From: Phycisphaerae bacterium
GTDB lineage: Bacteria > Planctomycetota > Phycisphaerae > Tepidisphaerales > Tepidisphaeraceae
DNA length: 64,000 nucleotides
Direction of reading: 5' to 3'
NCBI GenBank assembly: GCA_025924315.1
Contig: JAICIO010000020.1
Location: forward strand, 1 to 64,000
Part shown: positions 1,952-42,822 of the stretch, in pieces
Layout: each line of letters begins with the position of its first letter
Position numbering within the stretch: position 1 is the first letter of the stretch
Notes under the pieces: model-generated
Database searches by the model: none
Seen by the model: the letters and a program-made list of their open reading frames with translations, nothing else
What the model was told of the DNA's origin: nothing
Position numbers and translations under genes: made by a program

Positions 1952-2344
1952 CCGCGGATCAACGCAGATGAACGCAGATGGGGAGAAGAGTTTTGTCCAC
2001 GAAGGACACGAATGAACACGAAATCGCGTTCTGCCTTGTGGCCCTTCGTGTCCTTCGTAGATAATCCCACTGCACAAAGAGAGCGGATCAATGAAGCACG
2101 TGCTAGTTTCATACCGTACGCCGCGCAAGCTTGGTTGGAAAACAATCGTCGCTTGGTTTGCGCTCGCGGTTCTGATCGCAGCTCTGACGATATGCGTGAT
2201 TGCGGTGCTCACTTCATCCGCCACGTTTCAGGTCTCTGATTGAAAGTACATCAGTTCCGAATTTAGTTCTTGATTCGTGACTCTTCGTGTCCTTCGTGGA
2301 CAAAACTCTCCGCGATCTGCGTTCATCCGCGTTCATCTGCGGTT
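1952..2344. repeat. nested inverted-repeat unit with a small ORF inside
   Basis: Outer arms (1952-1980 and about 2311-2344) are built of repeated CGCAGATGAACGCAGAT-type words in opposite orientation. Inner arms are a perfect 25-bp inverted repeat, 1988-2012 against 2284-2308, carrying the TTGTCCACGAAGGACACGAA core. A further inverted copy of the core lies at about 2040-2062. The centre holds a 50-codon reading frame. The same two word families recur at 9333-9493, 20299-20376, 10.5 kb and around the GxxExxY gene at 40.8 kb. Confidence 0.75.
2091..2243 (+). CDS. 50-residue single-pass membrane peptide
   Basis: ATG at 2091 is preceded by a purine-rich AGAGAGCGG stretch. The 50-codon frame begins MKHVLVSYRTPRKLGW, a basic head, followed by one membrane segment of about 26 residues (IVAWFALAVLIAALTICVIA) and a short polar tail ending in TGA. 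The layout (basic head, one helix, short tail) is that of small inner-membrane peptides. It lies entirely inside a nested inverted-repeat unit, so it may be cargo of that element. Function unknown. Confidence 0.45.
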   Translation: MKHVLVSYRTPRKLGWKTIVAWFALAVLIAALTICVIAVLTSSATFQVSD

Positions 2345-39395: not shown

Positions 39396-40808
39396 ATGAA
39401 GCCACAGGACGTTCTCAAGCTTGTCAAAGATAAACACGTTCAGTTCATCGATTTGCGGTTCATGGATTTTCCGGGGCTTTGGCAGCATACGACGCTTCCC
39501 GTCACCGAGCTGACGCTCGATAGTTTCGAACATGGGTTTGGGTTTGATGGCTCGTCGATTCGGGGGTGGCAGGCGATTAATGAGTCGGACATGTTGCTCG
39601 TGCCTGTTGCCGACACCGCCAAGATCGATCCGTTTTTGCAGCACACGACGATCTCGATCATCTGCGACGTGCGCGATCCGATTACGAAGAAGGAGTATTC
39701 GCGCGATCCGCGGTCGATTGCGCGGAAGACGACGGAGTATCTCCGCAAAATCAAGATCGCGGACACGGCGTTTTTCGGGCCTGAGCTCGAGTTCTTCATC
39801 TTCGATTACGCGTGGTACGACCAGGGGATCAACTTCGCGAAATATCACGTGGGATCGCGCGAAGGGATCTGGGGCCGCGGCGACGAGGACGAGACGAATG
39901 CGGGCTACAAGATTCGTCTCAAGGAAGGTTATTTCCCCACTCCGCCGATGGATACGATGCAGAACATCCGCTCGGAGATGGTGGCGGAGCTGATGAACCT
40001 CGGCATTCCGGTCGAGGCGCATCACCACGAAGTCGCGACCGGCGGGCAGTGCGAGATCGACATGCGTTACCAGGACCTGGTGACGATGAGCGACAACGTG
40101 ATGATGTACAAGTATGTCGCGAAGAACGTCGCGGCGCGTCATGGGAAGGTTGTGACGTTCATGCCCAAGCCGCTGTTCCAGGACAACGGCAGCGGCATGC
40201 ATGTGCACTTCAGCCTGTGGAAGGGCGACAAGCCGCTGTTCGCGGGGAACAAATATGCGGGCCTCAGCCAGATGGGCCTGTGGGCGATCGGCGGGATTCT
40301 GCGGCACGCGAAGGCGTTGTGCGCGCTGTGTAATCCGACGACGAACAGCTACAAGCGGCTGGTTCCGGGCTACGAAGCGCCGGTGAATCTCGTTTACTCA
40401 AGCCGTAATCGCTCGGCCGCGATTCGGATCCCCATGTATAGCGATAATCCTAAAACCAAGCGATTGGAGTTCCGCTGTCCGGACAGCAGCTGCAATCCGT
40501 ATCTCGCGTTCAGCGCGATCACGATGGCCGCCATCGATGGCATCCAGAACAAGCTCGATCCCGGCGATCCGCTCGACAAGAACATGTACCACCTGACCAT
40601 GGACGAGCTCGACAAAATCGGCTCCGCCCCCGGCTCGCTCGAGGAAGCGCTCGATCAGCTCGAAACCGACCACGACTTCCTATTGAAGGGCGACGTCTTC
40701 ACGGCCGACGTGATTCACTACTGGATCAAGTACAAGCGAGAAAACGAGGTCGACGCCATCCGCATGCGCCCACACCCATACGAGTTCTGCATGTACTTTG
40801 ATATCTAG
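39396..40808 (+). CDS. glnA: glutamine synthetase, type I
   Basis: A 470-residue GSI dodecamer subunit. FGFDGSSIRGWQAINESDML (about residue 45), FGPELEFFIFD (about 125), HHHEVATGGQCEID (about 206), NGSGMHVHFSL (about 263) and NRSAAIRIP (about 348) are the standard site segments. The Tyr of the adenylylation loop may be that in KNMYHLTMDEL (about 393), so control by GlnE is possible but not shown. GAGGGAAG precedes the ATG at a good distance; the longer TTG frame is rejected. The GxxExxY element begins 5 bases after its stop. Confidence 0.95.
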   Translation: MKPQDVLKLVKDKHVQFIDLRFMDFPGLWQHTTLPVTELTLDSFEHGFGFDGSSIRGWQAINESDMLLVPVADTAKIDPFLQHTTISIICDVRDPITKKEYSRDPRSIARKTTEYLRKIKIADTAFFGPELEFFIFDYAWYDQGINFAKYHVGSREGIWGRGDEDETNAGYKIRLKEGYFPTPPMDTMQNIRSEMVAELMNLGIPVEAHHHEVATGGQCEIDMRYQDLVTMSDNVMMYKYVAKNVAARHGKVVTFMPKPLFQDNGSGMHVHFSLWKGDKPLFAGNKYAGLSQMGLWAIGGILRHAKALCALCNPTTNSYKRLVPGYEAPVNLVYSSRNRSAAIRIPMYSDNPKTKRLEFRCPDSSCNPYLAFSAITMAAIDGIQNKLDPGDPLDKNMYHLTMDELDKIGSAPGSLEEALDQLETDHDFLLKGDVFTADVIHYWIKYKRENEVDAIRMRPHPYEFCMYFDI

Positions 40809-40813
40809 GAGAA

Positions 40814-41260
40814 TTGTCCACGAAGGACACGAAGGGACACGAAGAAAGACATCATCGGACCAGCCGCTTCCAGTCGAGGCGGCCTTCGTCTCCGAAGTTG
40901 ATGATGATGCCGACTCGAAGGCCAGTGGCTTTGAGATAGTTCAGCATCTGTGCCTCTTCTTTGCTTCCGATCTGGTTCATGGCTTTCAATTCGACGAGGA
41001 CGGTTCCATAGCAAACGATGTCGGCAAAATACTTCTTGTCAAGACAGCGACCTTTGTAATAGATGCACAGTTCCTTTTGTGGTTCAAATGGAATCGCGCG
41101 CGACGTTAGCTCAAGCTCCATCGCTTCTTGATACACCGCCTCAAGAAAACCACTTCCGAGCTCGCGATGCACATCAATCGCGGCGCCGACGATCGCATAC
41201 ACCTCGTCCTTCAGAAGTAGCTCTGCCATATTCGTGTCCCTTCGTGTCCTTCGTGGACAA
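40814..41260. mobile_element. 447-bp inverted-repeat element carrying a GxxExxY gene
   Basis: The left arm 40814-40843 and right arm 41231-41260 are a perfect 30-bp inverted repeat, TTGTCCACGAAGGACACGAA and ten more bases. The arms frame the GxxExxY gene tightly: the left arm ends 8 bases beyond the stop, the right arm starts one base before the ATG. No target-site duplication of more than 3-5 bases was found. The arm core also occurs at 1988-2062 and 2284-2308. The call as mobile is inference from structure. Confidence 0.6.
40852..41229 (-). CDS. GxxExxY family protein
   Basis: A 125-residue protein with the naming motif G27-x-x-E30-x-x-Y33 (GSGFLEAVYQEAM) and a PD-(D/E)xK-like core, Asp70 (YFAD) and Glu80-x-Lys82 (VELKA). 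The family (PF13366-type) is predicted to be nuclease-like, but no biochemical role is established. It is common in planctomycetes and candidate phyla, often in several copies, and as cargo of repetitive elements. Here inverted repeats abut both ends of the gene, so its ribosome binding site and terminator, if any, must lie within the repeats. Transcription from outside or from the arm is likely. Confidence 0.9.
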   Translation of the reverse strand: MAELLLKDEVYAIVGAAIDVHRELGSGFLEAVYQEAMELELTSRAIPFEPQKELCIYYKGRCLDKKYFADIVCYGTVLVELKAMNQIGSKEEAQMLNYLKATGLRVGIIINFGDEGRLDWKRLVR

Positions 41261-41268
41261 TGAATTAA

Positions 41269-42822
41269 TCATTCGTTCGTTTTTTGCTGCTCCGCCTGCG
41301 GTTTCTTTTCCTTTTCCTTGTCCTTTGCGCGAAGGACGGAGTTGGGCACGTCGGGGTTGGTGTCTTTGTACTTTTCCTGCAACTCTTTGAGTTCCGCTTT
41401 CAGGTCGTCCTGGATCCGCTTGTAGTTCGGATCGTCGTAGACGCTGTGCATTTCGTGGGGGTCTTTTTGCAGATCAAAGAGTTCCCATTGCTTGTCGTCG
41501 TAGTAGTCGATGAGTTTGTAACGGTCGGTGCGGATGCCGTAGTGGCGGTGGGTCATGTGCGGGCTGGGCAGCTCGTAATAATGATAATAAATCGACTTTC
41601 GCCAGTCGCTGGGCGTCTGGCCTTTGAGCAGCGGCACAAGGCTGCGGCCTTGCATGTCGTCCGGGATTTTCGCGCCGGCAATGTCGAGAAAGGTCTCGGC
41701 GTAGTCGATGTTCTGCACCAGGTCGTGATTCTCGGATCCCGGTTTCGTCACGCCCGGCCATTTCACGATCAGCGGCATGCGCAACGATTCTTCGTACATG
41801 AACCGCTTGTCGAAATAGCCATGATCGCCGAGGAAAAAGCCCTGGTCTGAGCTGTAGATCACGATGGTGTTTTTCGCGAGGCCCGACTGATCGAGATAAT
41901 CCAGCACGCGGCCGATGTTGTCGTCCATCGATGCGATGCAGCGCAGGTAATCCTTGATGTATCGCTGATACTTCCAGCGGATGAGCGCGTCTCCGGTGAG
42001 ATGCTCTTCCTCGAACTTCTGATTCATCGGGCCATAGAAATCGTCCCACGCTTTTCGTTGCTTCGGCCCCAGATCCGGGGGAGCGACGAGTTTGGTGTCC
42101 TTGTCGTTCAGGTCCGTGATCATCTGTTTCTGCTCGCGTGCCGCGTCGGCGCGGTTCTTGTAATCGTCGAACAGATTTTCCGGCTCCGGAATCGTTTCAT
42201 TCTCATACAGGTGGAAATGCTTGGGATCCGGTTCCCACGGCCGATGCGGCGCCTTGTGCTGGTACATCATGATGAACGGCTTGTTCGGATCGCGCTTGTT
42301 CTTGAGCCAATCGAGCGTCAGGTCCGTGATGATGTCGGTCGTGTAACCGTTGTGCTTTTCTTTGTCCCCGTTCGTGATGAGCATCGGGTTGTAGTACGTC
42401 CCCTGGCCGACCAGGATGCTCCAGTAATTGAACCCGGTTGGATCGCTTACCAGGTGCCACTTCCCCACGAACGCGGTCTGATAGCCCGCCTTTTGCATCA
42501 GCTTCGGAAACGTCTCCTGCGAACCATCGAACGTCTCGCTGCCATTCATGTAAATGCCGTTGAGATGGCTCATCTTGCCGGTGAGGATCGTCGCGCGGCT
42601 CGGCGCGCAGAGCGAGTTCTCGCAGAAGCAATTGCGGAAAAGCATGCCGTCTTTCGCAATGCGATCGATGTTCGGCGTTTTGTTGATCTTCGAGCCGTAC
42701 GCGCTGATCGCGTGGGCGGCGTGATCGTCGGAGAAGATGAACAGAATGTTCGGCCGATCGTCGGCATGAACTGCAGGGGCGACGAGCACCGTCACGAGAA
42801 GTGAAAGAATGATGTGTTTCAT
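41269..42822 (-). CDS. exported sulfatase, Cys type
   Basis: A 517-residue type I sulfatase with signal peptide ([15 protein letters not shown], cleavage before DDRPN). The formylglycine site is Cys72 in CAPSR, with metal ligands Asp32 and Asp33 in FSDDHAAH and the later [10 protein letters not shown] segment (about 327). The protein hydrolyses sulfate esters of glycans in the periplasm and needs a formylglycine-generating enzyme, which is not encoded here. The end is Lys/Glu-rich. It is divergent from the large secreted protein gene, suggesting shared control of a glycan-degradation locus. Confidence 0.93.

Follow-up and report, generated by a model that had tools for sequence, protein, structure and literature searches.

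The window, by which we mean the whole 64,000-nucleotide stretch of DNA analyzed here, raises the question of why a small gene of the GxxExxY family should stand alone between two perfect inverted repeats. The two arms are 31 nt each, 100% complementary and separated by 387 nt (Table 1). An earlier note, made by reading this DNA unaided, had described exact 30-bp arms; the exact complementarity stands, but each arm is one base longer at its outer end. Its description of how tightly the arms frame the gene agrees with our own measurement of 1 base between arm and start codon and 8 bases between stop codon and the other arm. The element fits between a glnA-type ORF, whose stop at 40808 lies 4 bp ahead of it, and a sulfatase-type minus-strand ORF, whose stop at 41269 lies 7 bp beyond it; from recognizing their sequences, we take these neighbors to be glutamine-synthetase-like and sulfatase-like. 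The window's genome has 24 copies of the arm core, CCACGAAGGNCACGAA, and 0 of its reversed control, so chance is excluded as the source of the arms. The observation is confirmed as real, and it proves to be general as well.

Table 1. Positions of the complete element and of the related arms in the window
Feature	Position	Strand	Basis or remark
Complete element (GxxExxY gene with an inverted arm on each side)	40813..41261	-	between two gene ends
Arm 3′ of the gene, ATTGTCCACGAAGGACACGAAGGGACACGAA, with words CCACGAAGG, ACACGAAGG and ACACGAA	40813..40843	+	perfect 31-nt inverted repeat
Arm 5′ of the gene, minus-strand copy of ATTGTCCACGAAGGACACGAAGGGACACGAA	41231..41261	-	perfect 31-nt inverted repeat
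GxxExxY / PDDEXK_3 protein, 125 aa	40852..41229	-	profile matches, alignment, structure model
Gene-less palindrome, 75 nt, word of the window gene; arms 1992-2022 and about 2036-2066	1992..2066		arm search
Third arm, word of the window gene	2274..2304	-	together with the 1992 arm, brackets a 50-aa peptide ORF as well as the second arm of the palindrome
Outer arm, other word CCGCGGATCAACGCAGATGAACGCAGATG, left side of the nested palindrome	1952..1980	+	also in the inverted-repeat scan of L039
Outer arm, same other word, right side, minus strand CCGCAGATGAACGCGGATGAACGCAGATCG	about 2313..2342	-	arm search

The generality was measured by reverse-complementing the sequence downstream of each GxxExxY gene and aligning it with the upstream sequence. 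Among 84 GxxExxY loci from genomes around the window's own (genomes and loci carry our own G and L labels below), 70 (83%) have matching inverted arms at a score of at least 17, a score reached by 2.6% of mismatched locus pairs and by 0.5% of placements made at random in other loci. An arm usually measures about 30 nt (median 32), and in several of the remaining 14 loci the motif is visible below score 17. Four genomes of the window's phylum carry 10-15 GxxExxY genes each, and of 30 loci from them, 21 score at least 17 and 27 at least 14. Matched arms also accompany most of the loci from Bacteroidota (Bacteroides), Chloroflexota, Proteobacteria, Verrucomicrobiota, Lentisphaerae and Latescibacterota. 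The earlier note had held that the arms should be regarded as unrelated to the gene if most homologues lacked them and empty sites showed no precise excision boundary; arms flank most GxxExxY genes across genomes, so the link between arms and gene withstands that check.

In each arm a word of 9 or 10 bp is present about three times, CACGAAGG, CGCAGAGG, CACAGATGAA, CGCCAAG and CATGAAG being examples, and the polarity of the arm is constant, with the CC end outermost. By autocorrelation, the repeat period is 9 bp where the word ends in AG and 10 bp where it ends in AT, or about one helical turn. The word varies among elements, even within one genome, and the two arms of one element agree; in multi-copy genomes with 10-15 GxxExxY genes, each copy has its own word. 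Matching across the units is expected if one protein has to recognize all of them. It is not expected of RNA pairing, which needs no direct repeats and should favor G-U changes. Pairing of the arms at the RNA level was considered and rejected, as G-U compatible changes were not enriched (110 versus 89, p 0.16). Folded as DNA, an 80-nt gene-less example reaches -31.1 kcal/mol (z -9.3) and a single arm folds weakly (-3.8 kcal/mol, z -1.4), a stable hairpin requiring both arms.

Whether GxxExxY phylogeny tracks arm sequence, a check that the earlier note had proposed, can be answered in the affirmative. On a tree of 99 proteins, built from about 100 columns and with many forks unresolved, the AG or AT class of the arms changes 6 times, compared with at least 18 times (mean 23) in 500 shuffles, and across different genera protein identity is correlated with arm similarity (Mantel r 0.26, p 0.001). 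Three related elements at a MoxR/DUF58 junction illustrate how the word changes as a whole: their words are CGCGGAGG, CGCGAAGG and CGCAGAGG, present in almost every unit on both sides of the gene, with arm identity of 89-100% within an element and 77-83% between elements, and their proteins form one clade (94% SH-aLRT). Among other orthologous element pairs, only some show such a within-element excess, and concerted change of the word is therefore clear in some lineages only. The association of arms with the gene, the anatomy of the arms and the co-variation of word and protein are well established. Together, these comparisons of sequence argue strongly that the GxxExxY protein reads the word of its own arms.

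Arms are also found in pairs that enclose no such gene. The window's genome has about 15 gene-less arm pairs with spacers of 12-23 nt and unrelated interiors; a convergent partner lies 12-23 nt inward of 20 of its 24 arms, and none of the 24 has a partner in any other arrangement. Conservation of these dispersed arms begins at (A)TTGT on the outside and ends about 25 nt inside. The gene-less cores that had been noticed at about 2.0 and 2.3 kb of the window are real, although their arrangement is more complex than first described, comprising a 75-nt palindrome, a third arm and an outer pair with another word. Arms of the AT class (CGCAGATGAA) here surround CACGAAGG arms across 1952-2342, with a further CACGAAGG palindrome inside, and a 50-aa membrane-like peptide ORF lies at 2091-2243 within the nest. 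In G320, a genome of the genus g126 with a single GxxExxY gene, 41 sites match the arm pattern, most of them with the gene's own word and mostly as convergent pairs 64-500 nt long with unrelated interiors. In five G320 loci (L211, L220, L235, L212 and L227), palindromes built of one word have palindromes of another at about their middle, with roughly equal spacers on either side; each word can be the inner or the outer one. These few nested cases suggest insertion into palindromes. An outer arm pair was found at only 3 of 117 gene loci, 2 of which look like split arms of one word, and nesting is therefore occasional. Derivation of the gene-less pairs from the gene element by deletion was rejected, the interiors being unrelated.

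The dispersed arms are concentrated in genomes that have the gene. Among 246 genomes of the window's phylum searched with a generic AG-class pattern, 37 of 112 with GxxExxY have at least 10 arm sites, compared with 4 of 134 without it (Fisher p 1e-10, uncorrected for shared ancestry), and a reversed-pattern control showed no difference between carriers and non-carriers. The other 75 of the 112 carriers have fewer than 10 sites of this AG-class pattern. Within g126, the four non-carriers have 1-4 sites, as against the 41 of G320, the only carrier. In G000, G320, G305 and G188 the dispersed arms carry the word found in the arms of the gene, and in G318 they roughly do; this comparison was made by eye, and for G305 and G374 it uses only the gene arms and the pattern count. 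Exceptions occur. G309 has 121 sites, mostly CACGGAGG and often in convergent pairs, and its sole detected GxxExxY gene (L292) is armless; another enzyme may serve these sites. In G143 the gene's arm word is unlike the dispersed word, and in G374 the gene has no clear arm pair. Arm-rich genomes in which we detected no GxxExxY gene are G177, G200 and G189, the last with 39 sites in an assembly 84% complete.

What kind of protein could read such a word? The window protein matches PF13366 PDDEXK_3 (E 3.7e-40, 137 bits against a cut-off of 22), the sole profile of our search above its own cut-off other than the family profile itself, TIGR04256 GxxExxY (E 6.3e-41, 139 bits against a cut-off of 35). 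An alignment of 23 sequences is invariant at G27, E30 and Y33, which make up the family motif, and at D70, E80, K82, Q94 and Y98. The assignment as a GxxExxY/PD-(D/E)xK-like protein with Asp70, Glu80 and Lys82, first made by eye, is thus borne out: D70, E80 and K82 form the PD-(D/E)XK site, and Q94 and Y98 form a QxxxY motif, which is known in RecB/Cas4-type nucleases. The AlphaFold model is confident (pLDDT 93), and among solved structures it is closest to the Cas4 protein SSO0001 (4ic1; VIA-align Z 9.9, rmsd 4.9 over 101 residues; Foldseek E 1.6e-4). Lower matches, in a score range where a common fold means little, include 4r5q (titled Cas4, Z 6.4), alkaline and lambda exonucleases, LHK-Exo and Holliday-junction resolvases. 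With its PD-(D/E)XK core and QxxxY motif, the protein falls in the Cas4 / RecB-type nuclease superfamily. Its relation to Cas4 proper is another matter: the Pfam Cas_Cas4 profile gave a weak signal in 11 of 22 GxxExxY members, the best E over those 22 being 0.01, which is not significant, and no CRISPR gene was seen among the neighbors in the window or the other neighbors identified. A search for solved relatives by sequence found none at E up to 1. The conserved D-ExK-QxxxY residues and the modeled nuclease fold make it likely that the window protein is an active small nuclease. It matched no PADLOC defense model, one relative giving only a partial match (E 0.0025), and nothing in 50,697 phage records; there were few plasmid matches.

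The presence and absence of elements at equivalent places show that they are gained or lost. Between radA and a FAD-dependent gene in Bacteroides, some species have arm, gene and arm and others only 1-80 nt; arms of either class are found there, the two classes going with separate branches of the protein tree, and one locus (L167) has an apparent lone arm. Another radA-junction locus, L158, has a hybrid arm whose first word is of the CACAGAGG class and the rest CACGGATT/CACAGATT, facing an opposite arm of CACAGATT, and this suggests recombination between element classes at one junction. Two gene-less pairs of G320 are absent from congeneric genomes. The flanks of the empty sites in Bacteroides and g126 are too diverged for exact ends or a target duplication to be read, and the empty sites in Bacteroides and in the relatives of G320 contain no arm pair. 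Full elements look old and vertically kept. Sister species have the element at the same operon junction, and elements are located in conserved operon junctions, such as those we take from sequence recognition to be pyrB/pyrC and ruvA/ruvB. Recent transposition of the full element was rejected, because the multi-copy genomes G205, G254, G222 and G151 contain no near-identical full copies.

We consider it probable that the gene and its arms constitute a one-gene nuclease-palindrome system, in which the nuclease recognizes its own word and propagates or maintains palindromes in the manner of a RAYT. A small PD-(D/E)XK nuclease of the Cas4 / RecB / lambda-exonuclease branch would recognize a 9-10-bp word present about three times per arm, one helical turn apart, in both inverted arms. 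The gene would itself be one of the arm pairs, the nuclease happening to be encoded in its loop, and the other arm pairs, with short variable loops, would form strong hairpins. The nuclease would cut or process arm pairs, acting probably on their hairpin or cruciform form or where arm meets loop, and the ends so produced would serve to place copies of arm pairs in further intergenic sites or to convert pairs already present. The gene would remain mostly stationary and be inherited vertically, its word drifting along with the protein. Direct recognition of the word, cleavage and copying would then be activities of the GxxExxY protein, and arm pairs would move; copying or maintenance of the palindromes appears to be its most likely role.

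Other explanations begin from the same layout. A lone gene exactly framed by inverted repeats, with one junction either filled or empty and with elements nested in one another, is what a minimal classical transposon would look like, the arms being terminal inverted repeats, GxxExxY the transposase of a 450-bp unit and the gene-less pairs deletion derivatives (MITEs). We find this unlikely, given that near-identical full copies are missing from genomes with 10-15 genes, that gene-less pairs have no interior in common with the gene or with one another, and that orthologous junctions are kept while the word changes. The arms could also be the two halves of a palindromic recognition site, with a homing-type selfish nuclease in its center and the gene-less pairs as uncut targets. 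PD-(D/E)XK homing enzymes exist, the palindrome is indeed interrupted by the gene between its arms, the inner pair lies near the center of the outer pair in a few nested cases, and filled and empty alleles occur at one Bacteroides junction. The empty sites in Bacteroides and in the G320 relatives, however, have no arm pair, so insertion is not restricted to existing palindromes, and the gene has not been found spreading through the many pairs of its own word; homing, too, seems improbable to us.

Under a host function or a defense role, the protein would regulate its own gene by binding the arms, or the arms would serve as marks of self DNA or shape chromosome or transcript ends while the nuclease acts on another target. 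The arm that abuts the start codon, the snug position of elements between gene ends or in operons and their vertical persistence would all suit such a role, which we nevertheless judge very unlikely: there is no convincing PADLOC match, the words are highly diverse inside one genome, the 110 to 89 count (p 0.16) lacks the wobble-pair asymmetry expected of RNA structure, and the number of arm copies goes up with the presence of the gene. Finally, the armless gene of G309 and the arm-rich genomes in which no gene was detected (G189, G177 and G200) might be taken to mean that the arms arose independently, as repeats of the host or of foreign DNA, and that GxxExxY genes merely tend to land between them. 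That idea is almost certainly wrong, since the two arms around a gene agree with each other, the arm class tracks the protein tree, and within one genome the many genes each have a word of their own.

A nuclease that maintains or spreads palindromes of its own word, the reading we prefer, has its closest parallel in REPIN/RAYT, where inverted pairs with diverse spacers and singlet remnants accompany a single-copy, vertically inherited enzyme gene and are more numerous where the enzyme is present (PMC8049555). The GxxExxY arms likewise form dispersed inverted pairs with a short variable spacer, and we found them in greater number in genomes with the enzyme gene. The enzymes differ, GxxExxY being a PD-(D/E)XK nuclease without the HUH/Y1 tyrosine transposase domain of RAYT. 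So do the repeats: REPs are defined as short hairpins tagged with GTAG or CGTC (PMC3733652), whereas a GxxExxY arm consists of three direct 9-10-bp words over about 30 nt, and neither tag is present in the window arm. On present evidence, the GxxExxY-arm system works like REPIN/RAYT but is not a member of it, and it looks like a second, unrelated invention of the same arrangement. The earlier note had read the locus as a small transposon-like unit whose product might act on the repeat as RAYTs act on REPs. The latter half is well supported by arms at most homologues, by a word that tracks protein phylogeny and by the concentration of gene-less pairs in carriers; the simple-transposon half is not supported, given the lack of near-identical full copies, the junctions kept in sister species and gene-less copies that share arms only.

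Other known systems are more distant. The protein resembles Cas4, lambda exonuclease and RecB-type nucleases in its modeled fold and D...ExK...QxxxY residues, but it is only 124-125 aa long and stand-alone, with no CRISPR or recombination partner noticed beside the loci examined. MITEs and insertion sequences also have inverted repeats at both ends and short gene-less copies, but the gene-less copies here retain only the arms and there are no recent full-length duplicates. The nearest PD-(D/E)XK proteins with a proposed mobility role are the Rpn / YhgA-like proteins (PF04754), which have been proposed to promote DNA mobility, RpnA having little sequence specificity (PMC5350276). Rpn is a separate Pfam family, and inverted repeats are unmentioned in that paper (PMC5350276). 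Our search of the open-access literature, in which only two papers mention GxxExxY by name, found no description of arms associated with it. We know of no enzyme or repeat family of this kind in such a role, although the way of life of the system resembles that of REPIN/RAYT.

GxxExxY genes are annotated in many bacterial phyla without an assigned function, and the link to the arms offers a testable one; it would also account for short palindrome families such as CCACGAAGGACACGAAGG in these genomes. On balance we lean toward a wider view, in which GxxExxY would be a very large unrecognized class of word-specific nucleases, each maintaining or spreading its own palindromes, and a convergent, non-HUH counterpart of RAYT/REPIN across many phyla. 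If so, the REPIN/RAYT way of life would have arisen more than once. Natural protein-word pairs would then record how a Cas4-like fold shifts its DNA specificity, and hundreds of them could be used to decode DNA recognition by a tiny nuclease.

Several loci depart from the common layout. In L016 and L030 the GxxExxY gene has on either side a complete palindrome, with arms facing both ways, in place of a single arm. At several loci of the window's genome (L034, L035, L044 and L049), a different short palindrome, GCACGGGTTGAAAACCCGTGC, lies near a gene-less arm pair. Longer PDDEXK_3-domain proteins, encoded by open frames of 266-344 aa without arms, occupy orthologous places in three congeneric genomes (L107, L108 and L109) and are possibly a domesticated branch.
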